Source of the DNA: Actinoallomurus purpureus
GTDB lineage: Bacteria > Actinomycetota > Actinomycetes > Streptosporangiales > Streptosporangiaceae
Direction: 5' to 3'
DNA length: 64,000 nucleotides
Assembly: GCF_024055795.1 (NCBI RefSeq)
Contig: NZ_JAMXMY010000001.1
Coordinates: forward strand, 372,001 to 436,000
Shown: positions 9,290-32,260 of the stretch, in pieces
Layout: each line of letters begins with the position of its first letter
Position numbering within the stretch: position 1 is the first letter of the stretch
Position numbers and translations under genes: made by a program
The notes under the pieces: generated by a model
Seen by the model: only the letters and a program-made list of their open reading frames with translations
Told to the model about the DNA's origin: nothing
The model's database searches: none

Positions 9290-10039
9290 TCACCCGAGGC
9301 GGCGAGTGGTGATCTCGGTGGCCGTCTCCGCGACGAGACGGCCCAGTTCGGGCAGCCGATCCGGTTCGTAGCGCGAGTCGGGCATCGAGACGGCGAGGGC
9401 GGCGAGCGGGGTGTCGTCGGCGTCGAGGATGGGGGCCGCGATCGCGGCGACGTCAGGGCGGTACTGATTGCGGTTGAGCGCGTATCCCTCCCGCCGGACG
9501 CGCTGAAGCTCGGCGCGCAGCTCCGCCGGGTCGGTGATGGTCGCCTCGCCGTAGCTCTCCAGGCCGGCGGCGATGAACTCCTCCACCTCCGCGGTCGTCA
9601 GGTGGGCGAGCACGACCTGTCCGGTCGCGGTGGCGTGGAGCGGTGACGTGTCACCGATCTGGTGGAAGGTGCGAACCGTTCGATCGCAGTCGACGCGATC
9701 GACGACGACCATGCAGTCGAGTCCGTCCGGGACGGACAGGTGGATCGTCTCGTTGAGCGCGTCCCGGAGCCGGACCATGGGTTCGCGTGCGGCGGCGAAC
9801 AGGCTGGCTCCCTGCAGCGCGGCCGGCCGTACGGTGAGCACCCGGGCGCCGATCTCCCAGCGGGTGGTGTCGCCCCGGCTCGCTCGCAGCCACCCCGCCT
9901 CGTGCAGCGTTACGAGGGTGCGCTGGACCGTCGACTTGGGGATGTCGTAGAGCTTGGCGAGCTCTCCCACGGTCACCGGCTGGTGCTGAGCGACCGCTTC
10001 CAAGATCCGCAGACTGCGGATCACGCTCTTCATTTCCAT
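9290..10039 (-). CDS. IclR family transcriptional regulator
   Basis: 249 residues. The N-terminal winged helix (MEMKSVIRSLRILEAVAQH, with IPKSTVQRTLVTLHEAGWL as recognition region) occupies residues 1-70; the C-terminal IclR effector domain (TSPLHATATGQVVLAHL, NRNQYRPDVAAIAAPI) fills the rest. Family members bind small carboxylates or aromatics and usually control the divergent catabolic operon. GGGGAAAC 5 nt upstream supports the ATG at 10039 over the second ATG two codons later. It is divergent from the 12-gene operon beginning at 10280, with operator-like repeats between them. Confidence 0.92.
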   Translation of the reverse strand: MEMKSVIRSLRILEAVAQHQPVTVGELAKLYDIPKSTVQRTLVTLHEAGWLRASRGDTTRWEIGARVLTVRPAALQGASLFAAAREPMVRLRDALNETIHLSVPDGLDCMVVVDRVDCDRTVRTFHQIGDTSPLHATATGQVVLAHLTTAEVEEFIAAGLESYGEATITDPAELRAELQRVRREGYALNRNQYRPDVAAIAAPILDADDTPLAALAVSMPDSRYEPDRLPELGRLVAETATEITTRRLG

Positions 10040-10112
10040 GAGGTTTCCCCAGTTAAATCCCGGTCTCCACCGGGGAGACCCCTTGACTTCATCTCTGGCA
10101 ACCCTCAAGCTT

Positions 10113-10149
10113 GTGCCAAATAATAGCACGCCATTCCACAATGTGGCAC
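10113..10149. promoter_or_regulatory. Operator region between IclR gene and catabolic operon
   Basis: GTGCCA (10113-10118) and TGGCAC (10144-10149) form an inverted repeat around an AT-rich centre, and a tighter palindrome CCACA-A-TGTGG sits at 10136-10146. Both overlap the IclR promoter, which fits autoregulation plus control of the divergent operon. Confidence 0.5.
10120..10148 (-). promoter_or_regulatory. Predicted IclR-gene promoter
   Basis: On the minus strand TGCCAC (10148-10143) and TATTAT (10125-10120) are 17 nt apart. The -10 is good and the -35 weak; it lies about 80 bp upstream of the IclR start. Confidence 0.5.
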
Positions 10150-10279
10150 GGAGTTCGTGACAGACCCCGATCCCGGGCTCCCTCCTCGCGGTCACCCCGC
10201 GTGAATCCCTTCTGAATACGCCATCCCCTCTCCTCTTGGGCAGAGCCCTTCCACCTACTGAGACGACGAGGAGCCTTTC

Positions 10280-11413
10280 GTGGTAGCCAGAAAGCGCGTC
10301 GCCGTGGTCGGCGTCGGGACGATGGGCAGCCAGGCCGCCTGGCGGCTGGCCGCCCGCGGGGCCGAGGTCGTCGGCTTCGACCGCTTCGCCCCCGGCCACG
10401 ACCGCAGCGCCGCCGGCGGCGAGACGAGGATCTTCCGCAGCGCCCATTTCGAGGACTCGCGGTACGTCCCCCTGCTGAAGCACGCCGACGCGCTGTGGCG
10501 CCGGCTGCAGCGGGAGACCGGCCGTGAGCTGCGGCGCCTCAGCGGCTGCCTGCTGATGGGGCCCGCCGGGCACCATCAGATGCGCACCGTGCTGGAGTCG
10601 ATCGCCGAGCACGGGCTCGACCACGAGATCCTGGACGCCGAGGCACTCGCCGCACGGTTTCCCCAGTTCCGCATCGAGGACGGCGACGTCGCCGTCCTCG
10701 ACCGCAACGCCGGGTACATCCGTCCCGAGCTCACCGTGCTCACCGCCGCCCGCGAGGCGGAGCGGCTCGGCGCGCGCATCCACCGCTACAGCCCGGTCCG
10801 CGAGATCACGCCCGCGGGCAACGGTGTCGCCATCCGTACGGACGCGGGCACCGAGCACGTCGACGCCGCGGTGGTCACCGTCGGCCCGTGGGTCAACGAA
10901 CTGCTCCCCGGCCTGCCGTGGGAGGTGGACGTCCGCCGGTTGATCAACGCCTGGTACGTGCCGGCCTCCGACGCCTGGTTCGGCGCCGAGCGACCGGCCT
11001 TCATCCGGACCGCACCGACCCATTGCTACGGGCTGCCCTCACCCGACGGGGTGTCGGTGAAGCTCGGCCTGTCCCGGGCGCTGCACCGTCCGGTGGACGA
11101 CCCGAACCAGGTGGACCGGACGGTGCGTCCGGAGGAGCTGGAGGTGTTCACCGAACTGCTCCGCCGCCACCTGCCCGACCTGAACCCCGATCCGATCCGG
11201 CTGTCGGTCTTCATGGAGGGATACACCGAGAGCAGCCGGCCGCTGGTGGGCCCGCTGCCCGGCGCCCCGAACGTCGTGCTGCTGGCCGGTTTCTCCGGCC
11301 ACGGGTTCAAGCTGTCGCCCGCGATGGGCGACATCGCCGCGGACCTCGCGCTCGACGGGACCACGGCCCGGCCGATCGACTTCCTGTCCACCGTCGACCG
11401 CGCGGCCGCCTGA
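10280..11413 (+). CDS. FAD-dependent amine oxidase, MSOX/SolA-like
   Basis: 377 residues, a DAO-type flavoprotein close to monomeric sarcosine oxidase and N-methyltryptophan oxidase. The FAD motif VAVVGVGTMGSQAAWRLA is at residues 7-24, and GGETRIFRSAH corresponds to the family's flavin-adjacent loop. Enzymes of this family oxidise secondary or primary amines to imines with release of H2O2. The cysteine that covalently holds FAD in MSOX/SolA (C-M-Y-T) is Glu313 here (E-G-Y-T), so FAD should be non-covalent. It is the first gene of the operon; GTG start with GAGGAG 7 nt upstream; 32 bp before the first deacylase. Confidence 0.87.
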   Translation: MVARKRVAVVGVGTMGSQAAWRLAARGAEVVGFDRFAPGHDRSAAGGETRIFRSAHFEDSRYVPLLKHADALWRRLQRETGRELRRLSGCLLMGPAGHHQMRTVLESIAEHGLDHEILDAEALAARFPQFRIEDGDVAVLDRNAGYIRPELTVLTAAREAERLGARIHRYSPVREITPAGNGVAIRTDAGTEHVDAAVVTVGPWVNELLPGLPWEVDVRRLINAWYVPASDAWFGAERPAFIRTAPTHCYGLPSPDGVSVKLGLSRALHRPVDDPNQVDRTVRPEELEVFTELLRRHLPDLNPDPIRLSVFMEGYTESSRPLVGPLPGAPNVVLLAGFSGHGFKLSPAMGDIAADLALDGTTARPIDFLSTVDRAAA

Positions 11414-11445
11414 CCGGCCCGCCGCGAAAGCCAACGAGGAGCGAG

Positions 11446-12447
11446 ATGACGACGTCAGCACACGCCGGCGGCGACCCGGACATGATTCTCGGGCCGCTGC
11501 GCGCCGGGCCCGGGACGAAGCTTCGGGGGAGCGTACGGGTCGACCTCGGCACCACGGCCGTGCACGTCCCGGTCACCCTGGTGAACGGAGCACATCCCGG
11601 CCCGACCGTGGTCGTCACCGCCGGTGTGCACGGCGGCGAGTTCACGGGCGTGGACGCCGCCACCCGGCTCGGAGCCCTGCTGGAGCCCGACGAGGTCCAC
11701 GGCCGGCTGGTGGTGTGCCCGGTGGTCAACCCCCCGGCGGTCTACCAGGGACGCCTCGGCGTGTCCCCGCTCGACGGCATCAACATCAACCGGGTCTTCC
11801 CCGGGAATCCGGACGGAACACCGACCGAGCGGCTGGCCGCCTGGATCTTCGAGACGCTGATCGCCGAGGCCGACGCCTACGTCGACCTGCACAGCGGAGG
11901 CATCGACGAGACGCTGCGCGACTTCGTCGGCTACCGGCTCACCGGTCGCGCCGACGTCGACGGCCGGGCCCAGGGCATGGCACGCGCGCTCGGCATCGAG
12001 GACGTCATCCTGGGCCTGAACGCCGAGGGGGGCAACAGCCACGCGGCCGCCGCCCGTCAGGGTGTGCCCGCCGTCCTCGTCGAGACCGGGCAGCTCGGCG
12101 AGCGCGATCCGGCCGCGGCGCGATCCCTGATCGAGTCTCTCCACCGGCTGCTGCACCACCTGGGCGTGCTGCGGCGGAACGCCGGACCGGAGACGCCCCA
12201 GGTCCGCGAATGGGTGTGGGCCGGAGCCGTGACCGCCGAGGTCACCGGGCTGTGGTACCCGGAGTTCGGCACGGGAGACGACGTGACCGCCGGCCAGATC
12301 ATCGGCCGCGTCATCGACCCCGCCGACGGTCGCGAGCACAAGGTCACCGCGACGGCGACCGGCCGGATCTTCTACGGCATGCGCGGTCTGACCGTCGCAC
12401 CCGGTGCCGAGCTCGCGGCGATCGCCGCGCCGTACGAGGGCGCGTGA
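11446..12447 (+). CDS. Succinylglutamate desuccinylase/aspartoacylase-like deacylase 1
   Basis: 333 residues, a zinc carboxypeptidase-fold (M14-like) amide hydrolase of the AspA/AstE family, which removes acyl groups from N-acyl amino acids or diamines (the family includes the ectoine-pathway deacetylase DoeB). Zinc ligands: His and Glu in AGVHGGEF and His in VDLHSGG. NRVFPGNPDG and VETGQLGE are typical family motifs, and the C-terminal beta domain ends in a biotin-like fold (GRIFYGMRGLTVAPG). AGGAG 5 nt upstream of the ATG. The operon also carries a second, diverged copy at 18025, suggesting two deacylation steps or substrates. Confidence 0.87.
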   Translation: MTTSAHAGGDPDMILGPLRAGPGTKLRGSVRVDLGTTAVHVPVTLVNGAHPGPTVVVTAGVHGGEFTGVDAATRLGALLEPDEVHGRLVVCPVVNPPAVYQGRLGVSPLDGININRVFPGNPDGTPTERLAAWIFETLIAEADAYVDLHSGGIDETLRDFVGYRLTGRADVDGRAQGMARALGIEDVILGLNAEGGNSHAAAARQGVPAVLVETGQLGERDPAAARSLIESLHRLLHHLGVLRRNAGPETPQVREWVWAGAVTAEVTGLWYPEFGTGDDVTAGQIIGRVIDPADGREHKVTATATGRIFYGMRGLTVAPGAELAAIAAPYEGA

Positions 12448-12589
12448 TGGCGGGCGCTCGCCGCTCGGCGGACGGTCCGTGGTCGCCTCCCGGCTTATTA
12501 CTCCATTCGCACGTCGCAGCTCATCACGGCAGGGACCACGTCAGGACCGGATCGAGACAGACGCTCGGCATGACCAGGAGGTATCGGCG

Positions 12590-13699
12590 ATGAAGGAACC
12601 CCGGATCGACCGGAGAATTTTCCTGCGCGGAGTCGGCGGAGTCGCGGCGGGCATCACCGCGACATCGTTGACGGGATGCGGAACCGGAACGAGCCGTTCG
12701 GCCGGCGCCGCCGCCGGCGGCGGTGGCGGTAAGAAGACGATCGTCGTCCGCAACAGCGGCGGCACCTACGGGGATGCCAACCTCAAGGCGATCTACGAGC
12801 CGTTCACCAAGGAGACCGGCATCACGGTCAAGGTGGTGAACATCGAGTACGCGCAGATGCTCGCCCAGATCAAGCAGGGCAGGCCGCAGTTCGACGTCAT
12901 CGACGACTCGATGGCCGACTTCGTGCTCTTCGGCAAGGAGAACGCCCTTCAGAAGCTCGATCAGGATCGGCTGAAGAACTTCAAGGGCGCCGGCATCGCG
13001 AACAACCTCGTCACCCCGTACGCCATCGGCAAGAACTACTGGGCCAGCGTGATGGCCTACCGTACGGACGCCTTCGGCGGAAAGACGCCGCAGTCCTGGG
13101 CGGACTTCTGGGACACCAAGACCTTTTCCGGCAACCGGTCGCTGCAGAGCCAGGACGCCGACCTGCCCGAGCTGGAGTTCGCGCTGCTCGCCGACGGTGT
13201 ACCGATGGACAAGCTGTACCCCATCGACGTGGACCGCGCCTTCAAGTCGCTCGATCGGATCAAGGGGTCGGTCAAGAAGTACTGGGACACCGGAGCGCTC
13301 CCCGGAGTACTGCTGGGCCGCAAGGAGGTCGTCGCGTCGAGCGTCTGGCACGGCCGGCTCGACGCTCTGATCAAGCAGGGCCAGCCGCTCGCGTACCAGT
13401 GGAACGGCGCACGGCGGCAGAGCAACGGGTGGGGGATCCCGAACGGGGCCGCCAACACCGACGCCGCCTACCAGCTCATCGACTTCTCGCTGCGCCCCAG
13501 CGTGCAGGCGCACTTCGCCACGCTCTACCCGATGGGGCCGGTCGTCCCGGCGGCGTACAAGCAGCTGCCCGCCTCCGTGAGCGCCAACCTCGCCAGTTCC
13601 CCGGAGCACCTGAAGAGCGGATTCGACCTGGACGTCGACTGGTGGATCAAGAACCAGGACGCGGTCATCAAGCGCTGGCGGGGGTGGGCACGTGGCTGA
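12590..13699 (+). CDS. ABC transporter substrate-binding lipoprotein, polyamine type
   Basis: 369 residues, a periplasmic-binding-protein-fold protein of the PotD/spermidine-putrescine (PBP type 2) class, anchored outside the membrane. The N-terminus combines a twin-arginine motif (RRIFLRG) with a lipobox (SLTGC), so it is a Tat-exported lipoprotein. Mature motifs include VVRNSGGTYGDANLKAIYEPF and FDVIDDSMADFVLF. It starts at ATG 12590 with CAGGAGG 9 nt upstream, after a 142-bp gap that may hold a second promoter, and overlaps the ATPase gene by 8 nt. It defines the imported ligand of the pathway, which cannot be predicted finely from sequence. Confidence 0.92.
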   Translation: MKEPRIDRRIFLRGVGGVAAGITATSLTGCGTGTSRSAGAAAGGGGGKKTIVVRNSGGTYGDANLKAIYEPFTKETGITVKVVNIEYAQMLAQIKQGRPQFDVIDDSMADFVLFGKENALQKLDQDRLKNFKGAGIANNLVTPYAIGKNYWASVMAYRTDAFGGKTPQSWADFWDTKTFSGNRSLQSQDADLPELEFALLADGVPMDKLYPIDVDRAFKSLDRIKGSVKKYWDTGALPGVLLGRKEVVASSVWHGRLDALIKQGQPLAYQWNGARRQSNGWGIPNGAANTDAAYQLIDFSLRPSVQAHFATLYPMGPVVPAAYKQLPASVSANLASSPEHLKSGFDLDVDWWIKNQDAVIKRWRGWARG

Positions 13700-14825
13700 G
13701 ACCCGAGTGAGGTCCCAGCGCGGGTCCGGCCCCGGCGCCGGCGCGCTGGCGGGGAGCGGCAAGTCGCTGTCCGTAAGCGGGCTGCGCAAGACGTACGCGG
13801 GCGTCGTCGCGGTCGACGAGGTGTCGATGGAGATCGAGGCGGGGGAGTTCGTCACCTTCCTCGGCTCCTCCGGCTCGGGCAAGACCACCACCCTGATGAT
13901 GATCGCCGGGTTCGTCGAGCCGGACTCCGGTGTGATCAAGGTGGGCCGCCGCGACGTCACCCGGCTGGCGCCGCAGAAGCGGGGCCTCGGCTTCGTCTTC
14001 CAGCAGTACCTGCTGTTCCCGCACATGACCGTCGCGGAGAACATCGCCTTCCCGCTGCAACTGCGCGGCCTTTCGAAGGCGGAGGTCCGCCGCCAGGTCG
14101 GCCAGGTCCTCGAGATGGCCGGGCTCGAAGGGTACGGCCGCCGGCGCCCGCGCGAACTGTCCGGTGGGCAGCAGCAGCGCGTGGCCCTGTGCCGGGCGCT
14201 GGTGTACCGGCCGCCGGTCATCCTCATGGACGAACCGCTCGGCGCCCTCGACAAGAAGCTGCGCGACCAGCTCCAGACCGAGATCAAGAAGATCCAGCGC
14301 GAACTCGGCCTGACCGTCATCTACGTGACCCACGACCAGGAGGAGGCCCTGGTGCTCTCCGACCGGATCGCGGTGATGCGCGACGGCCTCATCGACCAGT
14401 TCGACACCCCCCGCGAGCTGTTCGAGCGGCCACGGACCGCGTTCGTCGCGGACTTCCTCGGCGCGGCCAACTTCCTGCCCGGCAGGCTGGAGAACCACAC
14501 CGACGAGCACTCCCTGGTCCGCCTCGACCACGGCGCGCTCGTACGGGCACGGCCGCATCCGCTCGCGCCCGGGCACCGCGTCCGGGCCGCGGTCCAACCC
14601 GGCCGGCTGGGCCTGTGCGCGCCGGCCGATGGGTTCTGTACGGGAACGGTCGAGACGGTCACCTACGTGGGCACCCTGGTCCGGGTCGGCGTCCGGCCCG
14701 CCGGCGCCGAGAGTCCGATCCGGCTGGAGCTTCCGGCGGGCCGCGCCCCGGTCACCGGCGAGCAGGTCGGCCTGACGGCCGACCCGGGTGACGTGACGCT
14801 CTTCGGCGACGAAGAGGGCAGGTGA
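13692..14825 (+). CDS. ABC transporter ATP-binding protein, PotA-like
   Basis: 377 residues, the ATPase of the importer. Walker A is GSSGSGKTT (about residues 58-66), Q-loop VFQQYLLFP, signature LSGGQQQRVALCRAL, Walker B VILMDEPLGALD, switch VTHDQEEAL. A C-terminal TOBE-like regulatory domain follows (residues 250-370). GTG start inside the end of the lipoprotein gene, so translation is coupled. Together with the two permeases it forms a standard PotABCD-type importer. Confidence 0.95.
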   Translation: MAETRVRSQRGSGPGAGALAGSGKSLSVSGLRKTYAGVVAVDEVSMEIEAGEFVTFLGSSGSGKTTTLMMIAGFVEPDSGVIKVGRRDVTRLAPQKRGLGFVFQQYLLFPHMTVAENIAFPLQLRGLSKAEVRRQVGQVLEMAGLEGYGRRRPRELSGGQQQRVALCRALVYRPPVILMDEPLGALDKKLRDQLQTEIKKIQRELGLTVIYVTHDQEEALVLSDRIAVMRDGLIDQFDTPRELFERPRTAFVADFLGAANFLPGRLENHTDEHSLVRLDHGALVRARPHPLAPGHRVRAAVQPGRLGLCAPADGFCTGTVETVTYVGTLVRVGVRPAGAESPIRLELPAGRAPVTGEQVGLTADPGDVTLFGDEEGR

Positions 14826-14828
14826 GCA

Positions 14829-15749
14829 GTGGCCGGATCCGTCCTCGCCCCCGTGCCCGCCTCCACCGCACCCGCCGCCAAGAGCCGCGTGCGGCGCTCC
14901 CTGCGCAGCCGCCGCACCCGTTCGGGTCTGCTCAACGGCGCGCCCATCGTCGTCTACATGCTGGTCCTGTTCGTCTATCCGATCCTCAGCACGCTGTTCC
15001 TGAGCGTCAAGGGCGTGCACGGCGGCCTCACCCTGCACTGGTACGCCGACGCCCTCAGCGGCGCGAACCTGGCCGTCCTGCTCACCACGCTGCGGATCTC
15101 CGCCGAGACCTCGCTGATCAGCGTGGTCATCGGCTTCCTGCTCGCCTACGCGGTGTCCCGGCTCCGCCCCCTCTGGGCCGGCCTGGTGATGCTGATCATC
15201 GTCGTGCCGCACTTCATCAGCGCGCTCGTGCGCACGTACGGCTGGATCATCCTGCTCGGTGACCACGGGGTGGTGAACAGTGTGCTCGTCGACCTGCACG
15301 TCCCCGGCGCGCCGTTCCAGCTGCTCTACAACGAGATCGGTGTGATCATCGGCACGACCTCCGTCATGCTGCCGTACACGGTGCTGCTGCTCTACGCCGT
15401 GATGCGCGGCGTGGACCGGCGGCTGCTCGCCGCGGCGGCCAGCATGGGCGCCGGCCGGCTGGTGATGTTCCGCCGCGTCTACCTGCCGCTGGTCGCGCCC
15501 GGCCTGGTCAACGCGACCGTCCTCAGCTTCATCCTCTGTCTGGGCTACTACCTGACCCCCGCGCTGATGGGCGGTGCCCGGCAGACCGTCGTCGCCGCCC
15601 TCATCGACGACGAGGTCATGAAGCAGAACCAGTGGAACGGCGCGGCGGCGCTCGGCGTCATCCTGCTGGTCCTCACCTTCGCCGGGCTGTCGCTGCTCCG
15701 GCTGGCCCGGGCGATCGGCGCGAGCGCCAGGCAGCGAGGTGCGGCGTGA
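14829..15749 (+). CDS. ABC transporter permease, PotB-like
   Basis: 306 residues with about six membrane spans after a cytosolic, Arg-rich N-terminus of 35 residues. The EAA-type coupling loop AAAASMGAGRLVMFRRVYLPL (shared by the family) lies near residue 200. GTG start at 14829, 3 bp after the ATPase stop; the end overlaps the next permease by GTGA. It forms the channel heterodimer with the product of the next gene. Confidence 0.93.
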   Translation: MAGSVLAPVPASTAPAAKSRVRRSLRSRRTRSGLLNGAPIVVYMLVLFVYPILSTLFLSVKGVHGGLTLHWYADALSGANLAVLLTTLRISAETSLISVVIGFLLAYAVSRLRPLWAGLVMLIIVVPHFISALVRTYGWIILLGDHGVVNSVLVDLHVPGAPFQLLYNEIGVIIGTTSVMLPYTVLLLYAVMRGVDRRLLAAAASMGAGRLVMFRRVYLPLVAPGLVNATVLSFILCLGYYLTPALMGGARQTVVAALIDDEVMKQNQWNGAAALGVILLVLTFAGLSLLRLARAIGASARQRGAA

Positions 15750-16606
15750 TCGGCCTGCGCAGCACCTGGGCCGGGCGGATCTGCCTCGCCGTCGCCTCCA
15801 CCGTCATCCTGCTGTTCCTGGTGATGCCGATCGTGGTGATCGTCGTCACCTCCTTCGGCAAGGACGCGCTGGGCTCCTTCCCCCCGCACTCCTGGACGCT
15901 CGGCTGGTACCACCAGCTGTTCGCCCCCGGCAGCAAGTGGCCCGGTGCGCTGTCCCTCAGCGTGCTGGTCGCCGCGCTCACCACGGTGTTCTCGCTGCTG
16001 CTGGGCGTCACCGCCGCGACCGCGCTGGTCCGCAGGGACCTGCCGCTGCGCTCGGCGGTCTACGGGCTCGTGCTGGCGCCGATGGTCATTCCCCAGGTCG
16101 TCATCGCGCTCGGGCTGTTCCTGTTGTTCGATCCGGCGGCGATGCTGGGCAGCCCCATCGCGATCGCCCTCGGGCACACCGTGCTGGCGGCGCCGATCGC
16201 GGTGCTCATCCTGATGGCGACGCTGCGCGGCATCGACGAGCGGCTGGAGGACGCGGCGGCCAGCATGGGCGCCGGGCGGCTCACGATCTTCCGGCGCATC
16301 ACCTTCCCGCTCGCCGCACCCGGGATGGTGGCGGCCGCGGTGTTCTCCTTCATCACCAGCTTCGACGAGTTCTTCATCTCCCAGTTCCTGTCCTCGGTCG
16401 ACACCACGACCCTGCCGGTGCAGGTGTTCAACGTGCTGCAGTACGACGTGGATCCGACGGTCACCGCGATCAGCGCGGTGCTCATCGCCGTCGCCGTCCT
16501 CGCCCTCGCGCTGGTCGGCGTCGTTCGCAGGCTCGGCTCCGGCCGGGAGAGCGGCCTGCTGCCCGTCGACTCGACCGCGGCCCTCCCCGGAAACGAGGTT
16601 CCATGA
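15746..16606 (+). CDS. ABC transporter permease, PotC-like
   Basis: 286 residues, six spans, with the coupling loop DAAASMGAGRLTIFRR near residue 175 and FITSFDEFFISQFL typical of PotC-type permeases. The GTG start overlaps the previous stop (GTGA), and the stop overlaps the aminotransferase start (ATGA). This tight coupling ties transport directly to catabolism. Confidence 0.93.
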   Translation: MIGLRSTWAGRICLAVASTVILLFLVMPIVVIVVTSFGKDALGSFPPHSWTLGWYHQLFAPGSKWPGALSLSVLVAALTTVFSLLLGVTAATALVRRDLPLRSAVYGLVLAPMVIPQVVIALGLFLLFDPAAMLGSPIAIALGHTVLAAPIAVLILMATLRGIDERLEDAAASMGAGRLTIFRRITFPLAAPGMVAAAVFSFITSFDEFFISQFLSSVDTTTLPVQVFNVLQYDVDPTVTAISAVLIAVAVLALALVGVVRRLGSGRESGLLPVDSTAALPGNEVP

Positions 16607-18003: not shown

Positions 18004-18024
18004 CACGAGATCGAGGAACGGAAC

Positions 18025-20519: not shown

Positions 20520-20521
20520 CC

Positions 20522-21487: not shown

Positions 21488-21506
21488 AACCATGAGGTTG
21501 GAGAAC

Positions 21507-22172: not shown

Positions 22173-22187
22173 CCCGGAGGACCCCGC

Positions 22188-23471: not shown

Positions 23472-23481
23472 GCGTCCGAGC

Positions 23482-23510: not shown

Positions 23511-23570
23511 CGCCACGGTGCCGTCGACCGACCCGACGTCGCACGGCCTGCCGGGACACCGTGAACGCGC

Positions 23571-23645
23571 CGGTGATCACGGCCTGGGAAGTGATCACCG
23601 TGGCCGCCTGCGGTCCCGGCGGTCTGCTCGCGCGGGCAGACCGCC
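23571..23645. terminator. Two further hairpins between convergent operons
   Basis: CGGTGATCAC (23571-23580) pairs with GTGATCACCG (23591-23600), and GGCGGTCTGC (23618-23627) pairs with GCAGACCGCC (23636-23645). The second lies 28 bp from the stop of the minus-strand operon and is likely its terminator. The first is symmetric like an operator, but no promoter is near. Confidence 0.5.
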
Positions 23646-23673
23646 GCGTCGCGGCCGTGGGCCGGCCGGAGTC

Positions 23674-24672: not shown

Positions 24673-26147
24673 GTCCGGTTCCGCACGGGGATCGCGACGT
24701 ACTTGTATTCGAGGAACTCCTCGATGCCGACACGCCCGCCCTCGCGTCCCAGGCCGGACTGCTTGACCCCGCCGAACGGGGCCGCCGGGTTGGACACCAG
24801 CCCGGTGTTGAGCCCGACCATGCCGACCTCGAGCCGCTCGCTGATCCGGAGGGCCCGGTCCACGTCGCGGGTGAACAGGTAGCCGACGAGGCCCCACTCG
24901 GTGTCGTTCGCGGCACGGACCACCTCGTCTTCGTCCTCGAAGGTGGTGATGGCGGCGACCGGTCCGAAGATCTCCGTCCGCATCAGCGCGGCGTCGCGGG
25001 AGACGTCCGTCAGGACGGTCGGCGGGTAGAAGTAGCCGGGGCCGTCCGGCGCGGTGCCGCCGGTCACGACCTTCGCGTCGCGCCGCAGCGCGTCCTCGAC
25101 CAGCTCCTCGACCTTGCCGCGCCCGGCGGCGTCGATCAGCGGGCCGACGTCGCTGCCGGGATCGGTCCCCGGGCCGACCGTGAGCGCGGCCATCCGCTCG
25201 GCGAAGCGGGCGGCGAACGCGTCGGCGACGGTACGGTGCACGAACATCCGGTTGGCGGCGGTGCACGCCTCGCCCATGTTCCGCATCTTCGCGGTCATCG
25301 CGCCGTCGACCGCGACGTCCAGGTCGGCGTCGTCGAAGACGATGAAGGGGGCGTTGCCGCCCAGCTCCATCGAGGTGCGCACCACCGTGTCGGCGCACTG
25401 GGCGAGCAGGATCCGGCCGACCTGGGTGGAGCCGGTGAACGACAGCTTGCGCACCTCGCCGCCGCGTAGCAGCGGCTCGACGACGGCGCCCGCGTCGGTG
25501 GTGGTCACGACGTTGAGCACGCCCGGCGGCAGGCCCGCCTCGGTAAGGATCCCGGCGAGCGCGAGCGTGGACAGCGGCGTCTGGGGTGCGGGCTTGAGCA
25601 CCATGGTGCAACCGGCCGCCACGGCCGGGCCGATCTTGCGGGTGCCCATGGCGAGGGGGAAGTTCCACGGGGTGATCAGCAAGCAGGGGCCGACCGGCCG
25701 GCGCATGACGAGGATGCGGTTCGCGCCGTCCGGCGTCGTGCTGAAGCCGCCGTCGATGCGCACGGCCTCCTCGGAGAACCAGCGGAAGAACTCGGCCGCG
25801 TAGGCGACCTCGCCGCGCGCCTCCTTCAGCGGCTTGCCCATCTCCAGGGTCATCAGCAGCGCCAGCTCGTCGGTGCGGGCGAGAATGATCTCGTACGCCC
25901 GGCGCAGGATCTCGCTGCGGGCCCGGGGCGCCGTCGCGGCCCATTCCTCCTGGACGGCGACCGCCGCTTTCAGGGCCCGCCGCCCGTCGGCAGGGGCGGC
26001 GTCGGCGATCTCGCACAGCACGTCGCCGGTGGCCGGGTCGTCCACGGCGAACGTCCGGCCGCCGGTCGCGTCGGTCCACGCGCCGCCGATGAACAGCTGC
26101 TTGGGCACGTCGGTCACGACGTCGGGCCGGGTGACGTCCACGGTCAT
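24669..26147 (-). CDS. Aldehyde dehydrogenase, succinate-semialdehyde type
   Basis: 492 residues. Order and motifs match GabD-type NAD(P) succinate-semialdehyde dehydrogenases: QLFIGGAWTDATGGRTF at the N-terminus, ITPWNFPLAMGTRKIGPA, FTGSTQVGR, Glu in MELGGNAPFIVF, Cys in NMGEACTAANRMFV, and APFGGVKQSGLGREGG near the end. It would oxidise the semialdehyde formed by the aminotransferase at 29107 to succinate. CCAGGAGGAAG gives an ideal ribosome site; the start overlaps the previous gene's stop (ATGA). Confidence 0.92.
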   Translation of the reverse strand: MTVDVTRPDVVTDVPKQLFIGGAWTDATGGRTFAVDDPATGDVLCEIADAAPADGRRALKAAVAVQEEWAATAPRARSEILRRAYEIILARTDELALLMTLEMGKPLKEARGEVAYAAEFFRWFSEEAVRIDGGFSTTPDGANRILVMRRPVGPCLLITPWNFPLAMGTRKIGPAVAAGCTMVLKPAPQTPLSTLALAGILTEAGLPPGVLNVVTTTDAGAVVEPLLRGGEVRKLSFTGSTQVGRILLAQCADTVVRTSMELGGNAPFIVFDDADLDVAVDGAMTAKMRNMGEACTAANRMFVHRTVADAFAARFAERMAALTVGPGTDPGSDVGPLIDAAGRGKVEELVEDALRRDAKVVTGGTAPDGPGYFYPPTVLTDVSRDAALMRTEIFGPVAAITTFEDEDEVVRAANDTEWGLVGYLFTRDVDRALRISERLEVGMVGLNTGLVSNPAAPFGGVKQSGLGREGGRVGIEEFLEYKYVAIPVRNRT

Positions 26148-29110
26148 GAGCTTCCTCCTGGCGGATTCGGGTCGAGGAGTTCGGCGAGGTGCCGGGCCCG
26201 GGGGCCGGCGACGCCGGTGAGGTGGTCGATCTGGGTGCGGCAGCTGAAGCCGTCGGCGAGCACGGCCCCGGCCTCGTCCGCGCGGCGGAGCTTCGGCGCG
26301 AGCGACAGTTCGGCGACGGCCATCGAGGTGTCGTAATGGTCGGCCTCGAAACCGAAGTTGCCGGCCAGGCCGCAGCAGACCGCCGACTCGTCGATCGTCT
26401 CGACGCCGAGGCGCCGGAGCAGCGCCGACTGCGTCGCGGCGCCGAACACCGCCCGCTCGTGGCAGTGCGGCTGCAGCGTCACCTGGCGGGGAACGTTCGG
26501 AGGCCGCCAGTCCGCGTCCGCGAGCTCGCTCAGGGCACCGGCGAACGTCCGGATCCGCGCGGCGACGCGGCGGGCGGCCTCGGTGCCGAGCAACGCGGGC
26601 GCGTCGTGCCGGAGCGCGGCGGCGCAGCTGGGCTCGGGCAGCACGATCGGCAGGTCGGCGTCCGGGCCCTCGTCGAGGGCGCGGACCGTGCGGGCCATCA
26701 CCCGGCGGGCGATGCCGAGCTGTCCGGTGCTCACCCACGTCAGCCCGCAGCACAGTCCGCTGCGTACGGCGGCGGGCGCGCCGGCGTCGGCGAGCACCCG
26801 CGCCGCCGCACCGGCGACCTCGGGCCGGAACGCGCGGGTGAAGGAGTCGACCATGAGCAGCGCGGCGGGCCGGTCGTCCCGTGCGCCGGTCACCGGCCGC
26901 CCGTCCGGGCGTCCAGTGGCGGGCCCCCGCAGAGCCTCGCGCAGCGCCCGGCGGGGCGCGAAGCGCGGCAGGGACCGCTCCGGCGTCACCCCGCCCAGAC
27001 GCGCCACCAGCCGCCCGGCGGGGCTCGTCAGGACGGCGTTGACCGGGGCCGCGGCGAACCCGGCGGCAGCAGCCCACCACGGCAGCCAGCCCAGCGTGTA
27101 GTGGCTGCGCGGGCGCAGCCGCCTCCGGTAGTGGTGGTGCAGGAACTCGGCCTTGTAGGTGGCCATGTCGACGCCGACCGGGCAGTCGGACGCGCAGGCC
27201 TTGCAGGACAGGCACAGGTCCAGCGCGTCGTGCGCGTCGGCGGACCGCCAGCCGTCGGTGAGCGTGCCGTCGGGGCCGCCGCGCAGCATCTCCTGCAGCA
27301 CGCGGGCGCGCCCGCGGGTCGAGTCGCGTTCGTCGCGGGTGACCTGGTAGCTGGGGCACATGGCGCTGCCGTCGCTCCGGCACCGGCCGACGCCGATGCA
27401 GCGCCGGGCGGCTCCGGCCCGCCCGTCGGGGTCGTCCGGGAACGTGAACCCGGTGCGCGAGGGCGCGGGCCGCGCCGACGCCACGTCGTGCAGCGCCAGA
27501 TCGGCGTCGATCGCCGCGGGATCCACGACCACGCCGGGGTTGAGCAGGCCGTCCGGGTCGAAGATCCGTTTGTACGCGGCGAACGCGGCGAGCATCCGGG
27601 GGCCGTACATGGTGGCGAGCAGTTCGCTGCGGGCCCGGCCGTCGCCGTGCTCGCCGGACAGCGTGCCCCCGTGCCGGACGACGAGGGCGGCGGCGTCCCG
27701 CAGGAACGCCCGCATCACCGCGATGCCCGCCGACGTGGTCATGTCGAAGTCGATGCGCACGTGGACGCACCCGGCGCCGAAGTGTCCGTACAGCACACCG
27801 GTCAGGGAGTGTTCGGCCAGCAGGGCGCGGAAGTCGTTCAGATAGCCGGCGAGGTCCTCCGGGGCGACGGCGGCGTCCTCCCATCCGGGCCAGGACTCAC
27901 CGCCGCCGACGAGCCGCGCGGCCAGGCCCGCGCCGTCCTCCCGGACGCGCCACAGGGAGCGGCGCTCGGCGAGGTCGTCGCCGACCTGGCCGGCGGTCAT
28001 CCGGCCGGTGGAGCGCAGTTCGGCGAGCAGGGCGGCCGCGCGGCGACCCGCCGCTCCGACGTCGTCGCCGTCCAACTCCACGTAGAGCCATGCCTTGCCC
28101 TCCGGGAGGCCGGTCACCGCGTCCGGGCCGCGCCGGTGGCGCATCGTGGCGACGATCGCCTCGTCCATGCCCTCGACCGCCGTCGGCCGGTGCCGGAGGA
28201 TCGCCGGGACGTCGGCCGCCGCGTCGACGACGTCGGCATAGCCGATCGCCAGCAGCGTCGTCGCCACGGGCCTCGGCTGCAGGCGAACGGTGGCGCGCAC
28301 GACGATCGCGCAGCCGCCCTCGGTCCCGACCAGTGCACGGGCGGCGTGCCGGCCCCGCTCCGGCAGCAGGTGGTGCAGCTGGTAACCGGAGACCTGACGA
28401 GGGATGCGGCCCAGTTCGGTGCGGATCGCGGCGAGGTTGCCGTCGACGAGGCGGCCGACGGCGGTGTCGATGCCGGTGACGCGCCGTACGGCCTCCGCGT
28501 CGGACGGATCGGCGGGCCGCAGCCCGCCGGCCTCGGCGATCGCGTGGACGCCGTCGGCCGTCACGATCTCGAGCGCCTCGACGTGCTCGACCGTACGGCC
28601 GTAGCGCACCGAGTGGTTGCCGCAGGCGTCGTTGCCGATCATCCCGCCGAGGGTGCAGCGGCTGTGCGAGGACGGATCCGGGCCGAAGAACAGGCCGTGC
28701 GGCGCGGCGGCGCGCTGCAGCTCGTCGAGGACGACGCCGGGCTCGACCACCGCCGTGCGGGTCTCCGGATCGACGTGCAGGACCCGGTTCATGTGCCGGG
28801 AGAGGTCGAGCACGAGTCCCGGCCCGACCGCGTTGCCCGCCATGCTGGTGCCCCCGCCCCGGGCGACGATCGGCACGCCCAGAGAACCGCAGATCCGCAC
28901 GACGGCGGCCACCTGCGCCGCGTCCGCCGGGAAGGCCACCGCCAGCGGCGGCACCCGGTAGTTGGAGGCGTCGTAGGCGTACTGGGCGCGCCGCCCGGCT
29001 CCCGCGTCGACCTCCAGCCCGGGGACGCCGTCGCGGAGCGCGGCCACGAGCTCCTCCTCCGGGCCGCGCGGGGAGGGGAGGCGTGCGGGAAGGCGGTCCC
29101 GCGGGCTCAC
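26144..29110 (-). CDS. FAD/4Fe-4S dehydrogenase, YdiJ/D-lactate dehydrogenase-like
   Basis: 988 residues, a fusion of GlcD-like and GlcF-like modules. Residues 1-520: FAD-binding PCMH domain (VPIVARGGGTSMAGNAVGPG) and FAD-oxidase C-terminal domain (LYGHFGAGCVHVRIDFD, LSGEHGDGRARSELL). Residues 560-690: iron-sulphur part, with an incomplete first cluster (CIGVGRCRSDGSAMCPSY) and a full CxxCxxCxxxCP (CLSCKACASDCPVG). Residues 800-970: two CCG-type motifs (GLCCGLTW; CCGLAGNFGFE). YdiJ-type enzymes oxidise D-2-hydroxyglutarate or D-lactate and pass electrons to the membrane chain. The GTG start overlaps the aminotransferase stop. Confidence 0.9.
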   Translation of the reverse strand: MSPRDRLPARLPSPRGPEEELVAALRDGVPGLEVDAGAGRRAQYAYDASNYRVPPLAVAFPADAAQVAAVVRICGSLGVPIVARGGGTSMAGNAVGPGLVLDLSRHMNRVLHVDPETRTAVVEPGVVLDELQRAAAPHGLFFGPDPSSHSRCTLGGMIGNDACGNHSVRYGRTVEHVEALEIVTADGVHAIAEAGGLRPADPSDAEAVRRVTGIDTAVGRLVDGNLAAIRTELGRIPRQVSGYQLHHLLPERGRHAARALVGTEGGCAIVVRATVRLQPRPVATTLLAIGYADVVDAAADVPAILRHRPTAVEGMDEAIVATMRHRRGPDAVTGLPEGKAWLYVELDGDDVGAAGRRAAALLAELRSTGRMTAGQVGDDLAERRSLWRVREDGAGLAARLVGGGESWPGWEDAAVAPEDLAGYLNDFRALLAEHSLTGVLYGHFGAGCVHVRIDFDMTTSAGIAVMRAFLRDAAALVVRHGGTLSGEHGDGRARSELLATMYGPRMLAAFAAYKRIFDPDGLLNPGVVVDPAAIDADLALHDVASARPAPSRTGFTFPDDPDGRAGAARRCIGVGRCRSDGSAMCPSYQVTRDERDSTRGRARVLQEMLRGGPDGTLTDGWRSADAHDALDLCLSCKACASDCPVGVDMATYKAEFLHHHYRRRLRPRSHYTLGWLPWWAAAAGFAAAPVNAVLTSPAGRLVARLGGVTPERSLPRFAPRRALREALRGPATGRPDGRPVTGARDDRPAALLMVDSFTRAFRPEVAGAAARVLADAGAPAAVRSGLCCGLTWVSTGQLGIARRVMARTVRALDEGPDADLPIVLPEPSCAAALRHDAPALLGTEAARRVAARIRTFAGALSELADADWRPPNVPRQVTLQPHCHERAVFGAATQSALLRRLGVETIDESAVCCGLAGNFGFEADHYDTSMAVAELSLAPKLRRADEAGAVLADGFSCRTQIDHLTGVAGPRARHLAELLDPNPPGGSS

Positions 29111-30360
29111 GACGTGCCGGCGCGGACGGCCGCCGCCCAGGCGCGCAGTGCCGCGTCGATCTGGTCCTGGTCGACGACCAGCGCGGGGATCATCCGGACC
29201 ACGTTGTTCCAGGGCCCGCAGGTCAGCAGCAGGAGACCCTCGTCGACGGCGGCCCGGTGCACGCGGGAGGCCGTCTCCGGGTCGGGTTCGCCGTCGGCGG
29301 TGACGAACTCGCCGGCGAGCATCAGCCCGAGTCCCCGTACGTCGCCGATCCCCAGGTGCTCCGCCGCGACCTTCTCCAGACCGGCGCGCAGCCGCGCGCC
29401 CATCGCGGCCGCGTTGGCGACCAGGCCCTCCTCGCGTACCACCTCGAGGGTGGCGAGGGCCGCCGCGCAGGCCACGGCGTTCCCGCCGTAGGTGCCGCCC
29501 TGGGAGCCGGGCCGGGCCCTGCGCATCAGCTCTTCGGAGGCGGCGATGCCGGACAGCGGGAAGCCGCTGGCCAGGCCCTTGGCGGTGATGAGGATGTCGG
29601 GCCGGACCCCGAAGTGGTCGTGTCCCCAGAAGCGGCCGGTACGCCCGACGCCGGTCTGGATCTCGTCGAGGATCAGCAGGATGCCGTGCCGGTCGGCGCG
29701 TTCGCGCAGGCCCTTGAGGAAGCCCTCGGTGGCCGGGACGTAGCCGCCCTCGCCGAGCACCGGCTCGACGATGATCGCGGCCGTGTCCTCCGGGTCGGAC
29801 ACCGTCTGCAGGAGGTAGTCGAACTCCCGCAGCGCGAAGCGGGTCGCGGTCTCCTCGTCCCAGCCGTAGTGGAAGGCGTTCGGGAACGGAGTGATGACGA
29901 CGCCGCCCATCAGCGGGCCGAACCCCGTCCGCACCTTGGTGTTGGAGGTGGTCATCGAGGCCGCGGCGACCGTACGGCCGTGGAACCCGCCGTGACAGAC
30001 GACGATGTTCGGGCGCTTCGTCGCCTGACGGGCGAGCCGCATCGCGGCCTCCACCGCCTCACTGCCGGAGTTGACGAAGAACAGGCTGTCCAGGCCCTCC
30101 GGAAGGACCTCACCGAGCTCGCGCGTCAGCCGGCCGAGCGGCTCGTGCAGCACGGTCGTGTACTGCCCGTGGATCAGCTTCGCCGTCTGTTCCTGCGCGG
30201 CGGCCACCACCCGCGGGTGGCAGTGCCCGGTGCTCGTGACGCCGATGCCCGCCGTGAAATCGAGGTAACGACGGCCGTCCGTGCCGTACAGGTAGACGCC
30301 CTCGCCGCGTTCGGCGACGACCGGAGTGGCCTGGCGCAGGTGCGGGGACAGGTCGGTCAT
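29107..30360 (-). CDS. 4-Aminobutyrate-type class-III aminotransferase
   Basis: 417 residues, a PLP aminotransferase of the GABA/acetylornithine group. Motifs: SLFFVNSGSEAVEAAMRLAR, CHGGFHGRTVAAASMT, LILDEIQTGVGRTG (PLP Asp) and ITAKGLASGFPLSG with the Schiff-base lysine. Predicted to convert GABA (or a homologous omega-amino acid) plus 2-oxoglutarate to semialdehyde plus glutamate. CAGGAGAT before the ATG at 30360 defines the start. It is the first gene of the operon with the FAD/FeS enzyme, the succinate-semialdehyde-type dehydrogenase and the hydroxyacid dehydrogenase; divergent from the PucR-type regulator. Confidence 0.9.
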   Translation of the reverse strand: MTDLSPHLRQATPVVAERGEGVYLYGTDGRRYLDFTAGIGVTSTGHCHPRVVAAAQEQTAKLIHGQYTTVLHEPLGRLTRELGEVLPEGLDSLFFVNSGSEAVEAAMRLARQATKRPNIVVCHGGFHGRTVAAASMTTSNTKVRTGFGPLMGGVVITPFPNAFHYGWDEETATRFALREFDYLLQTVSDPEDTAAIIVEPVLGEGGYVPATEGFLKGLRERADRHGILLILDEIQTGVGRTGRFWGHDHFGVRPDILITAKGLASGFPLSGIAASEELMRRARPGSQGGTYGGNAVACAAALATLEVVREEGLVANAAAMGARLRAGLEKVAAEHLGIGDVRGLGLMLAGEFVTADGEPDPETASRVHRAAVDEGLLLLTCGPWNNVVRMIPALVVDQDQIDAALRAWAAAVRAGTS

Positions 30361-30419
30361 GATGCGATCTCCTGTGAGGTGCGAACCGGTGCGTACTGCC
30401 TGGTGACCGGGGTACACGG

Positions 30420-30437
30420 CCACCCTGTCCACCCTGT
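30420..30437. promoter_or_regulatory. Direct repeat in the PucR-aminotransferase intergenic region
   Basis: CCACCCTGT occurs twice in direct succession, about 60 bp from the aminotransferase start, upstream of a CATACTGT -10-like box at about 30455. Direct half-sites fit the asymmetric binding of PucR-type activators; this is positional inference. Confidence 0.35.
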
Positions 30438-30604
30438 GGTGAGGCGTCAACGGGCATACTGTGCGGTCGTCGGCCATGATGTGGACGGTCTGTCCATCGC
30501 CCGGGGGCGCCCCGGTGCCGGCCGCCGGAGGAACGCGGCTGACCAGCCGTTACGGCGCTTGCGGCCGTGGCGGCCGGTTTGCCAGAGTGGCAGGGATGCG
30601 GCAC

Positions 30605-32260
30605 ATGTCAGAACCAGGGGAGACGTCACCGGGATCGGCCTCCACCAGGTTCATCACGATTGCCGATGTGCTGCGGTTGCCGGTCCTCGTCGCGGGACTC
30701 CCGGAGGTCGTGGCCGGGGAAAGCCACCTGTCGCGCCCGGTGCGCTGGGTGCACGTCACCGAACTCCTCGACCCGGCGTCGTTCCTCGAGGGCGGTGAAC
30801 TGATCCTCACCACCGGGATGCCGCACCCGGAGGATCCGACGCTGCTGCGCGCCTACGTCGACCAGCTCGCCGACATCGGCGCCGCCGGGCTCGTCATCGA
30901 ACTCGGCCGTCGCTACCACCAGGTGCCGGCCGACCTCGTGCACGCCTGCCGGAGCCGGGACCTCCCGCTCATCGTCCTGCACCGCGAGGTCCGGTTCATC
31001 GACGTCACCCAGACCGTGCACGCGCTGCTCCTCGACGCCCAGGGCGAACTACTCCGCCGGGCGCAGCGCATCCAGGACACCTTCCGGACGCTGACGCTCC
31101 GCGGCGCCGAACCCGGAGAGATCGTCACGTCGGCGGCCGAGATCACCGACTGCCCCGTCGTCCTGGAGAACCTCGTCCATCACGCCGTGCACTGCGCACC
31201 GGCCGGCCGGCCGGTCGGGCAGGTGCTCTCGGCGTGGCCACGGCGTTCGTACGGGACGCCGACGCCCGACCGGACCGCGCTGAGCGGACCGGAGGAATGG
31301 CTGGTCACGCCGCTGGAACACCGAGGGAGCCGCTGGGGGCGGCTGGTGCTGCTGCCCGACGAGAACGATCCGGCGATCGGTCCGGAGCATGTCATGGTGC
31401 TGGACCACGCCGCGACCGCGCTGACCCTCGCGCGGTTGTCCGGGCACGCGCGCTGGGACCGGGCGGCCCACGAGACGGCGCTCCGCGACCTGATCGAGCG
31501 GCGTCACCGGACGGCGACCGAGGCGCGTACGCGGGCCGAGTCCCTCGGCCTGCCGGTCACCGGGCACCGGCTCATCGCGGTGCTGGTCCGGGTGGGGCGG
31601 CGGGAGGGCTTCGGCGACGACCTGGCGGCCCGGCTCGCCGGCGCCGGCGTCCGTGCCCTGGTCGGCGGGCTGCGTCCCGGCGTGGTCGGCGCGCTGATCG
31701 CGATGGCCCGGGCGAGCGCGTGGCAGCCGATCGCCGAACGCATCGGCCGATTCGCCCGGGAGGAACTGGGCGAGGACACGGTCGTCGCGGTCGGGCCCGG
31801 TGTCGCCGACCTCGACCAGATCGCTCGCTCGTTCGCGGAGGCGGAGCAGGTGCTGGAGGCGATCCCGCCCGGCTCCTCCGACCGGCCGTTCCACGTGACG
31901 TCCGACATCGGGCTCGCGGAGCTGCTGTACGCGCTGCGTGACGACGTCCGTGTCCAGCGGTACGTCACCCACCGGCTCGGCCGGCTGATCGAGCACGACG
32001 AACGGCACGACGGCGATCTCGTGGCCACGCTCCAGCAGTACCTCGCCGAGGCGGGCAACAAGTCGGCGGCCGCCAAGCGCGGCGGCCTGTCGCGCCAGGC
32101 GTTCTACCACCGGCTGCGGACGATCGAACGCCTGCTGGGCCGCGATCTGGAATCAGGCGTGCAGCGTACGGAGCTCCACGTGGCCATCACGGCGCTGGAC
32201 GTCCTGGGCGGTCTCCCGCCGGCCGGCCGCGTCACCGACCCCCCGGGCCGGAACGACTAG
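30605..32260 (+). CDS. PucR family transcriptional regulator
   Basis: 551 residues. The N-terminal PucR sensory domain (ITIADVLRLPVLVAGLPEVVAG, residues 17-140), a central GGDEF-like region, and a C-terminal HTH_30 helix-turn-helix (NKSAAAKRGGLSRQAFYHRL) are in the family order. PucR proteins activate purine, GABA, proline or other nitrogen catabolism genes in the presence of the substrate. The ATG at 30605 has GCAGGGA 9 nt upstream; an ATG three codons earlier is too close to that site. It is divergent from the GABA-type operon. Its 3' end overlaps the convergent TetR gene by 29 bp. Confidence 0.9.
   Translation: MSEPGETSPGSASTRFITIADVLRLPVLVAGLPEVVAGESHLSRPVRWVHVTELLDPASFLEGGELILTTGMPHPEDPTLLRAYVDQLADIGAAGLVIELGRRYHQVPADLVHACRSRDLPLIVLHREVRFIDVTQTVHALLLDAQGELLRRAQRIQDTFRTLTLRGAEPGEIVTSAAEITDCPVVLENLVHHAVHCAPAGRPVGQVLSAWPRRSYGTPTPDRTALSGPEEWLVTPLEHRGSRWGRLVLLPDENDPAIGPEHVMVLDHAATALTLARLSGHARWDRAAHETALRDLIERRHRTATEARTRAESLGLPVTGHRLIAVLVRVGRREGFGDDLAARLAGAGVRALVGGLRPGVVGALIAMARASAWQPIAERIGRFAREELGEDTVVAVGPGVADLDQIARSFAEAEQVLEAIPPGSSDRPFHVTSDIGLAELLYALRDDVRVQRYVTHRLGRLIEHDERHDGDLVATLQQYLAEAGNKSAAAKRGGLSRQAFYHRLRTIERLLGRDLESGVQRTELHVAITALDVLGGLPPAGRVTDPPGRND

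Follow-up and report, generated by a model that had tools for sequence, protein, structure and literature searches.

Two adjacent operons in a stretch of DNA of 64,000 nucleotides from Actinoallomurus purpureus (hereafter the window: positions 372,001-436,000 of contig NZ_JAMXMY010000001.1; G+C 71%; source genome 9.25 Mb) very probably encode one pathway, and we tentatively propose that this pathway is the catabolism of an amino-carboxylate made of four-carbon (C4) units around azetidine-2-carboxylate, of the nicotianamine/mugineic-acid type. In the structure described in a passage of PMC10341464, nicotianamine is an azetidine ring with two aminobutyrate units, and the mugineic acids derive from nicotianamine (stated in part of PMC7786132); since these compounds are azetidine plus two C4 amino-acid units, C4 products fit them. 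What carries the proposal is a co-conserved set of enzymes whose families and synteny fit C4 acids together with a relative of azetidine hydrolase. Enzymes of C4 (hydroxy)acids recur across the clusters compared, together with a hydrolase of the HAD family, a DAO-type oxidase, aldehyde dehydrogenases and a class-III aminotransferase, and they would fit aspartate, aspartate semialdehyde, 4-amino-2-hydroxybutyrate and D-malate.

The region at 9290-32260 contains 18 genes, identified by frame statistics (frames with typical G+C at third codon positions) and family searches. Operon 1 (10280-23471, plus strand) has 12 genes in the order MTOX, DEAC1, SBP, ABC, PERM1, PERM2, AT1, DEAC2, ALDH1, AKR, HAD and DAO2, separated by gaps of -8 to 142 bp, with a divergent IclR regulator. 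Operon 2 (23674-30477, minus strand) has four, AT2, the YdiJ-like gene, ALDH2 and HADH, with -4 bp at all three junctions, and a divergent PucR regulator. The genes, strands and two-operon layout with separate regulators that an earlier note on this DNA had named were all borne out by frame statistics and Pfam/NCBIfam models. The features are the following (ATP-binding cassette, ABC; flavin adenine dinucleotide, FAD; gamma-aminobutyric acid, GABA):

9290-10039 (-): IclR-family regulator (IclR_C 4e-41, HTH_IclR; 67-89% in related loci)
10280-11413 (+): MTOX, monomeric sarcosine/N-methyltryptophan oxidase-like FAD amine oxidase (NF008425 314 bits, above the cut-off of 257; PDB 7exs 3e-62)
11446-12447 (+): DEAC1, AstE/AspA zinc deacylase, DoeB-like (PF24827 3e-26; TIGR02994 96.7 bits, cut-off 402.7; zinc motif invariant)
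12590-13699 (+): SBP, solute-binding lipoprotein of the ABC importer (nearest solved chains 4i1d, 3rpw, 4eq7, GABA sensor 6dgv, agropine binder 6hly)
13692-14825 (+): ABC importer ATPase (PotA/PhnT-like, under cut-offs)
14829-15749 (+): PERM1, ABC importer permease 1 (PotB-like, under cut-off)
15746-16606 (+): PERM2, ABC importer permease 2 (PotC-like, under cut-off)
16603-18003 (+): AT1, class-III aminotransferase (NF005102 526.8 bits, cut-off 574; among window proteins it matches the aminotransferase of the S. medicae cluster best, 226 bits)
18025-19002 (+): DEAC2, second AstE/AspA zinc deacylase (PF24827 9e-26; PDB 6twm, DoeB, 3.5e-28)
18999-20519 (+): ALDH1, betaine-aldehyde-dehydrogenase-like aldehyde dehydrogenase (PF00171 6e-163; TIGR01804 494.9 bits, under cut-off)
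20516-21487 (+): AKR, aldo/keto reductase (PF00248 6e-63)
21492-22172 (+): HAD type II hydrolase, relative of L-azetidine-2-carboxylate hydrolase (TIGR01428 138.6 bits, above the cut-off of 125.4; PDB 3smv/8ywo/9v14)
22188-23471 (+): DAO2, FAD amine oxidase, AmaA/Phn_aa_oxid-like (PF01266 4e-68; homologue adjoins a HAD in 11 of 18 plasmid loci)
23472-23673 (no strand): convergent intergenic region with strong hairpins (hairpin folding)
23674-24672 (-): HADH, NAD-dependent D-2-hydroxyacid dehydrogenase (PF02826 1e-48; GhrA of the S. medicae cluster matches, 110 bits)
24669-26147 (-): ALDH2, succinate-semialdehyde-dehydrogenase-like (TIGR01780 584.2 bits, cut-off 646.35; 453.6 bits to the succinate-semialdehyde dehydrogenase, SSADH, of the S. 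medicae cluster)
26144-29110 (-): YdiJ-like FAD/4Fe-4S D-2-hydroxyacid dehydrogenase (NF049975 478 bits, cut-off 1350)
29107-30477 (-): AT2, GABA-aminotransferase-like class-III aminotransferase (PF00202 2e-125; NF005993 482.8 and TIGR00700 353.5 bits, both under cut-off)
30605-32260 (+): PucR-family regulator (PF07905 5e-40; 52-68% in operon-2 neighbourhoods)

From the genes, their synteny, their co-occurrence and their families, all of which are observed, we infer each reaction, its stereochemistry and the substrate as follows. The ABC system would import the substrate, and MTOX and DAO2 would oxidise its amine N-CH2 bonds, which flavin oxidases of the MTOX/DAO type are expected to cut, to aspartate semialdehyde (or malate semialdehyde); ALDH1 would turn the semialdehyde into aspartate, which in many relatives would then pass to fumarate through an operon-linked aspartase. 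The HAD would open the azetidine ring, free or still N-substituted, giving a 4-amino-2-hydroxybutyrate unit that AT2 (or AT1) and the SSADH-like ALDH2 would convert to D-malate, and the YdiJ-like enzyme and HADH would oxidise D-malate into central metabolism, a task that GhrA and a tartrate/D-malate dehydrogenase may perform in other lineages. The deacylases would act on some N-acylated form or intermediate.

The azetidine ring enters this scheme through the HAD, which passes the HAD type II model and finds its best solved match in the group 3smv/8ywo/9v14, named by its depositors L-azetidine-2-carboxylate hydrolase (E 2.2e-27), followed by 8yvw (1.1e-26) and 8hp5 (1.8e-21); the HAD of the R. 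opacus plasmid cluster has the same best match. The window HAD is predicted to open azetidine-2-carboxylate, and an ordinary phosphatase was rejected on the same two grounds, the HAD type II cut-off and a ring hydrolase as best solved match. The product of this opening is 2-hydroxy-4-aminobutyrate in Pseudomonas, and azetidine-2-carboxylate assimilation in Aspergillus nidulans requires GABA transaminase, as passages of PMC8016842 report. With L-azetidine-2-carboxylate assimilation, represented there by the hydrolase of Pseudomonas sp. A2C and by AzhA of A. nidulans, the window would share ring opening by a HAD-family enzyme followed by GABA-type transamination, along with a GABA-transporter homologue (PMC8016842, in part); it differs in adding two amine oxidases, a second aldehyde dehydrogenase, deacylases and D-2-hydroxyacid enzymes, and in its HAD, which lies outside the clade of the solved enzyme. 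HADs also keep company with other parts of the system: one accompanies operon-2 genes in Rhodococcus sp. JS3073 (locus L139), another stands with MTOX, importer and HADH in genome G007, and loci L158 and L159 have an extra HAD gene inside operon 2. Furthermore, in G250 (L178:1219-13473), where DEAC2 is absent, operon 2 has a HAD of its own and is joined by a transporter and a DAO oxidase; this set could be a stand-alone azetidine-2-carboxylate module.

A different form of the cluster is found on plasmids. We viewed 18 annotated plasmid loci carrying a DAO2 homologue of 47-52% identity, 17 of them from Proteobacteria and one from R. opacus, hand-picked for diversity from 314 records at E 1e-90 or better (two more loci, which carry no annotation, are not counted); the gene tables of the collection are incomplete, so that counts of annotations are lower bounds. 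A HAD type II gene is annotated in at least 14 of the 18 and adjoins DAO2 in at least 11, and ABC importer genes are present in all 18 (for R. gilardii, just a truncated binding protein at the edge). The other annotations include GNATs (at least 13), class-III aminotransferases (at least nine), SSADH (at least eight), and tartrate dehydrogenase and GhrA (at least seven each); the tartrate dehydrogenase copies scored, those of L057 and L163, are both over their cut-off. In five of the loci (L163, L166-L169) the HAD adjoining DAO2 is not the only one: another falls within the azetidine-hydrolase clade, and that of S. medicae, the only copy searched, matches azetidine hydrolase at E 2e-41. The clusters of S. 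medicae pSymA and P. denitrificans plasmid 1 combine HAD, DAO2 homologue, SSADH, tartrate dehydrogenase, class-III aminotransferase, GhrA and ABC importer. Like the window, the former has homologues of DAO2, ALDH1, AT1, ALDH2 and HADH, with the same annotations in P. denitrificans; unlike the window, these two clusters have a two-permease importer, of peptide type by its layout, and GNATs, show no annotated AstE-type deacylase, and have tartrate dehydrogenase in place of YdiJ. One aimed search of the open-access literature yielded no characterisation of a plasmid cluster of the S. medicae/P. denitrificans type. The idea that the GNATs are azetidine acetyltransferases of the Mpr1 type was dropped, the one copy searched having no PDB match named Mpr1.

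Metal or siderophore-receptor genes accompany at least five of the 18 plasmid loci: CDF with ArsR; P-type ATPases with CueR; CopBCD/TonB; CopCD with a TonB siderophore receptor; and a TonB siderophore receptor. If the substrate entered as a metal complex, this would account for the metal exporters, metalloregulators and siderophore receptors of some related clusters. Among actinomycetes, three Streptomyces loci have a heavy-metal P-type ATPase close to operon 1, L051 (15963-17942), L054 and L060, and a protein resembling it lies beside operon 2 at L179:4713-6692; the L051 copy, the only one scored, is above the family cut-off. Two plasmid clusters, of Rhizobium SRDI969 (L173:2054-17256) and B. 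cepacia (L161:13768-17144), have relatives of ornithine cyclodeaminase and Thr/Ser dehydratase, and the former also PdxA and a four-carbon acid kinase; such extras would suit hydroxylated C4 units, as in mugineic acid.

Operon 1 is a conserved unit. An orthologue of DEAC2 is rare in the window's family, where among 200 genomes only G100 (80%) has one besides the window's own genome (G000), the other matches being paralogues of 29-40%. In named genomes, DEAC2 loci 71-84% identical (the best 80 of 85 loci) belong to Streptomyces, Nonomuraea, Saccharothrix, Lentzea, Kribbella, Micromonospora and two unplaced actinobacteria. Fifty of these 80 loci are fully flanked on both sides; counting a gene as present when its best tblastn piece reaches at least 48%, all 13 genes from IclR to DAO2 are found in 41 of the 50 and in the same order and strand in 40, which exceeds chance, and the search for the same gene order in other actinomycete genomes, which the earlier note had called for, succeeded for operon 1. 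Among the other nine, three Lentzea loci (L087, L101, L104) have a different, amino-acid-type importer (its parts typed on the L093 copies) and lack both the window's importer and AT1, which is absent from L077 and L080 as well. Of the 80 loci, 43 have an aspartase at 60% identity or more; where DAO2 is present too (41 loci), the aspartase follows it at a distance of 9-347 bp, and the copy of L093 is above its curated cut-off. In two Kribbella loci, whose genomes are without a YdiJ orthologue, operon 1 is followed by an aminotransferase, an ALDH2 relative, an alanine dehydrogenase and a tartrate/D-malate-type dehydrogenase, which possibly stand in for operon 2.

The earlier note had taken the two operons to act together, and this agrees with three lines of evidence: linkage kept through an inversion, co-occurrence of the YdiJ-like gene with DEAC2, and the S. 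medicae cluster, which has homologues from operon 1 (DAO2, ALDH1, AT1) and from operon 2 (ALDH2, HADH), the assignment of ALDH1 there being a near tie (285 bits vs 269 for ALDH2). In G100 the block of IclR and operon 1 is inverted, and the two operons are nonetheless adjacent, operon 2 lying on the other side of the block. A YdiJ orthologue (at least 65% identity, E-limit 1e-50), searched for in the genomes of 40 of the 80 operon-1 loci, was found in 34, those of G218, G229 and G234 being split into pieces. In 22 of these genomes it lies within 20 kb of DEAC2, in one it is 120 kb away on the contig of DEAC2, and in 11 it is on a different contig. Among 60 further genomes of the window's family none has one, the best match being 57% at E 1e-200 or better, a stricter limit at which the operon-1 count is 32 of 40 (the orthologues of G218 and G229 being in pieces). 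Because relatedness differs between the two sets, a second comparison was added inside the genus of G205 (Streptomyces; locus L047): in a sample of 61 of its genomes, five have DEAC2 and YdiJ, one DEAC2 only, two YdiJ only and 53 neither. When G205 is left out, YdiJ is present in four of five genomes with DEAC2, two of which (G202, G238) were already known from the named-genome scan, and in two of 55 without it (Fisher p 1.5e-4). Finally, the 16 operon-2 neighbourhoods beside operon 1 (L142-L157) all have PucR, YdiJ-like and ALDH2 genes, and 15 have AT2. It is very unlikely, in our opinion, that the operons are unrelated neighbours, operon 1 serving an amino acid with an N-methyl or N-acyl group, operon 2 GABA-like amino acids, and the HAD acting as a 2-haloacid dehalogenase or another hydrolase. 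Such independence would suit the separate regulators, the YdiJ orthologues without DEAC2 in G250 and G264, and the six of 40 genomes with DEAC2 and no YdiJ; it is weakened by the linkage in G100, by the co-occurrence and by the S. medicae cluster, whose annotated gene set is the same in Paracoccus.

Several observations weigh against the nicotianamine-type reading of this joint pathway. As regards the HAD, the depositors' names of 3smv/8ywo/9v14 also include (S)-2-haloacid dehalogenase, an activity that the window enzyme may truly have; in a tree of 28 HADs, which carries a long-branch warning, it falls outside the azetidine-hydrolase clade (33% identity), and it is nearer to the plasmid HADs of L129 and L130 (42-43%), which have no DAO2 nearby, than to the DAO2-adjacent plasmid HADs (33-38%). 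Four of five plasmid loci found by the HAD alone have unrelated surroundings, the fifth being L139. MTOX passes the NCBIfam model of N-methyl-L-tryptophan oxidase; L078 and L088, also among the nine incomplete loci, retain only MTOX, DEAC1 and DEAC2, with neither HAD nor DAO2 (both genomes carry operon 1 elsewhere, as L103 and L059). A profile search of the window's genome found no aspartase above cut-off, aspartase is annotated in only one of the 18 plasmid loci (a lower bound), and to these are added the six operon-1 genomes lacking YdiJ. The window cluster has no metal or siderophore genes, none are annotated in 13 of the 18 plasmid loci, which are not a random sample, and two of the five metal-gene loci (L132, L138) show no HAD. 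The weak point of the reading is that nicotianamine has no amide bond, and two conserved zinc deacylases are for this reason unexplained by it; their target may be an acylated form or an intermediate protected by an acyl group, or acylation may belong to the true substrate, and a step of lactam opening or metal handling is conceivable for them.

The deacylases are the centre of a rival that we consider rather unlikely, a pathway for an N-acylated amine or diamino acid, similar to a DoeB-DoeD-DoeC route for N-acyl-2,4-diaminobutyrate or a relative, in which deacylation by DEAC1 and DEAC2 would be followed by transamination to aspartate semialdehyde (AT1), oxidation to aspartate (ALDH1) and conversion to fumarate (aspartase). 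Both deacylases are intact and conserved: the H and E of HxxE, the DLH and a later E do not vary across 56 sequences of DEAC1 and 81 of DEAC2, those of the window among them. Of the solved structures, DoeB is closest to DEAC2, aspartase lies downstream in many related loci, and M20/ArgE deacylases are annotated in at least five of the 18 plasmid loci. Against the N-acyl route, DEAC1 and DEAC2 score 96.7 and 115.1 bits with the DoeB model TIGR02994 (cut-off 402.7), ectoine hydrolase DoeA has its best score across the window's own genome at 68.6 bits (cut-off 613), AT1 is missing from the five loci named above, and HAD, MTOX, DAO2 and operon 2 are left unexplained. The claim of the earlier note that the amine arrives already N-acylated, which is possible, lost ground, deacylase annotation being absent from 13 of the 18 plasmid loci, R. 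opacus included (gene tables incomplete); an amidohydrolase lies at the edge of the stretch in the R. opacus and Bosea loci. When plasmids were searched with DEAC2, the 575 records found were all relatives of less than 60% identity, and the two loci viewed among them are peptide-uptake clusters with AstE paralogues; on the Cytobacillus plasmid (L121:17995-33968) several AstE/M14 deacylase paralogues are interleaved with peptide importers.

The importer bears on two further alternatives. SBP matches the solved GABA sensor and the agropine and mannopine binders far better than PotD, and the label "polyamine-type" given by the earlier note was accordingly not upheld, although the near-top entry 4eq7 is titled 'Polyamine'. 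Proximity to opine binders suits another amino-carboxylate chelator or opine (aspergillomarasmine, EDDS (ethylenediamine-N,N'-disuccinic acid), a mannopine-like or an Amadori compound), which flavin oxidases would split into aspartate and aldehydes, as do the metal genes of some related clusters and the aspartase of relatives; such a substrate would have no call for a HAD of the azetidine-hydrolase type, nor for the set of GABA aminotransferase, SSADH and D-malate enzymes found with HADs in several lineages, and we regard it as unlikely. Degradation of polyamines or gamma-amino acids of the Puu type with accessory genes is very improbable. The window has Pot-like ABC parts, class-III aminotransferases, aldehyde dehydrogenases and a DAO oxidase, and shares with the Puu putrescine pathway a DAO-type oxidase, an aldehyde dehydrogenase and GABA-aminotransferase-like and SSADH-like enzymes; no gene of 9290-32260, to which this search was confined, matches PuuA or PuuD, PuuC reaches 389.4 bits (cut-off 850), GABA aminotransferase (TIGR00700) 353.5 (506.65) and SSADH 584.2 (646.35), PotA, PotB and PotC are below cut-off as well, and SBP scores far better against GABA and opine binders than against PotD. 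With ectoine degradation (DoeABCD/EutABCDE) the window has in common AstE-type deacylases, a class-III aminotransferase, an aldehyde dehydrogenase and aspartate as a likely product; it differs by the lack of a DoeA over cut-off, by deacylases far under the DoeB cut-off, and by its extra oxidases, HAD and operon 2. The Puu pathway, ectoine degradation by DoeABCD and a plain GABA shunt were thus rejected on curated cut-offs, in line with the view of the earlier note that the region encodes neither the Puu pathway nor known ectoine degradation.

The individual steps of the proposed nicotianamine-type pathway are known chemistry, and the assembled pathway seems to be new: its gene set was not found in the open-access full-text literature, a scope within which absence is not proof, and bacterial breakdown genes for nicotianamine-type chelators seem to be unknown. 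Mugineic acids, secreted by grasses for iron, are readily degraded by soil microbes, as a passage of PMC7946895 states. According to parts of PMC7786132, Pseudomonas fluorescens SBW25 lowered the amounts of mugineic acids in plant culture, the sole degrading isolates before it are those for which 'no genetic information was available', and that study's own candidate genes still need validation. We consider it possible, with slightly more reserve than for the window itself, that a dedicated and widespread bacterial pathway mines nicotianamine, deoxymugineic acid and mugineic acid for carbon, nitrogen and metal, with superclusters as its form in actinomycetes and a second form carried by plasmids of rhizobia and other Proteobacteria. 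If true, this would supply the genetic basis that has been lacking for the breakdown of phytosiderophores in soil. A defined gene set would make the question of mugineic-acid degradation testable, would have a bearing on the design of iron fertilisers and on competition for iron in the rhizosphere, and would suggest a role for the many rhizobial plasmids carrying a DAO2-type oxidase.

As regards the rest of the region, the two operons converge over 202 bp of strong hairpins (minimum free energy -129.5 kcal/mol, z -2.9). The earlier note had called these strong terminators: the hairpins are there, a T-run is absent, and a scan for canonical promoters and terminators gave none; that they act as terminators is plausible. 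Beside PucR, at 32232-35669, a TetR gene (minus strand) is followed by cupin, alpha/beta hydrolase and third DAO-type oxidase genes (plus strand), perhaps one more small operon for catabolism. Next, at 37344-38606 (minus strand), a TerC-family membrane protein is encoded, and upstream of the two-operon region, at 5084-9212, lie ricin-type lectin domains, a GFO/IDH/MocA oxidoreductase and a GH53 glycosidase.

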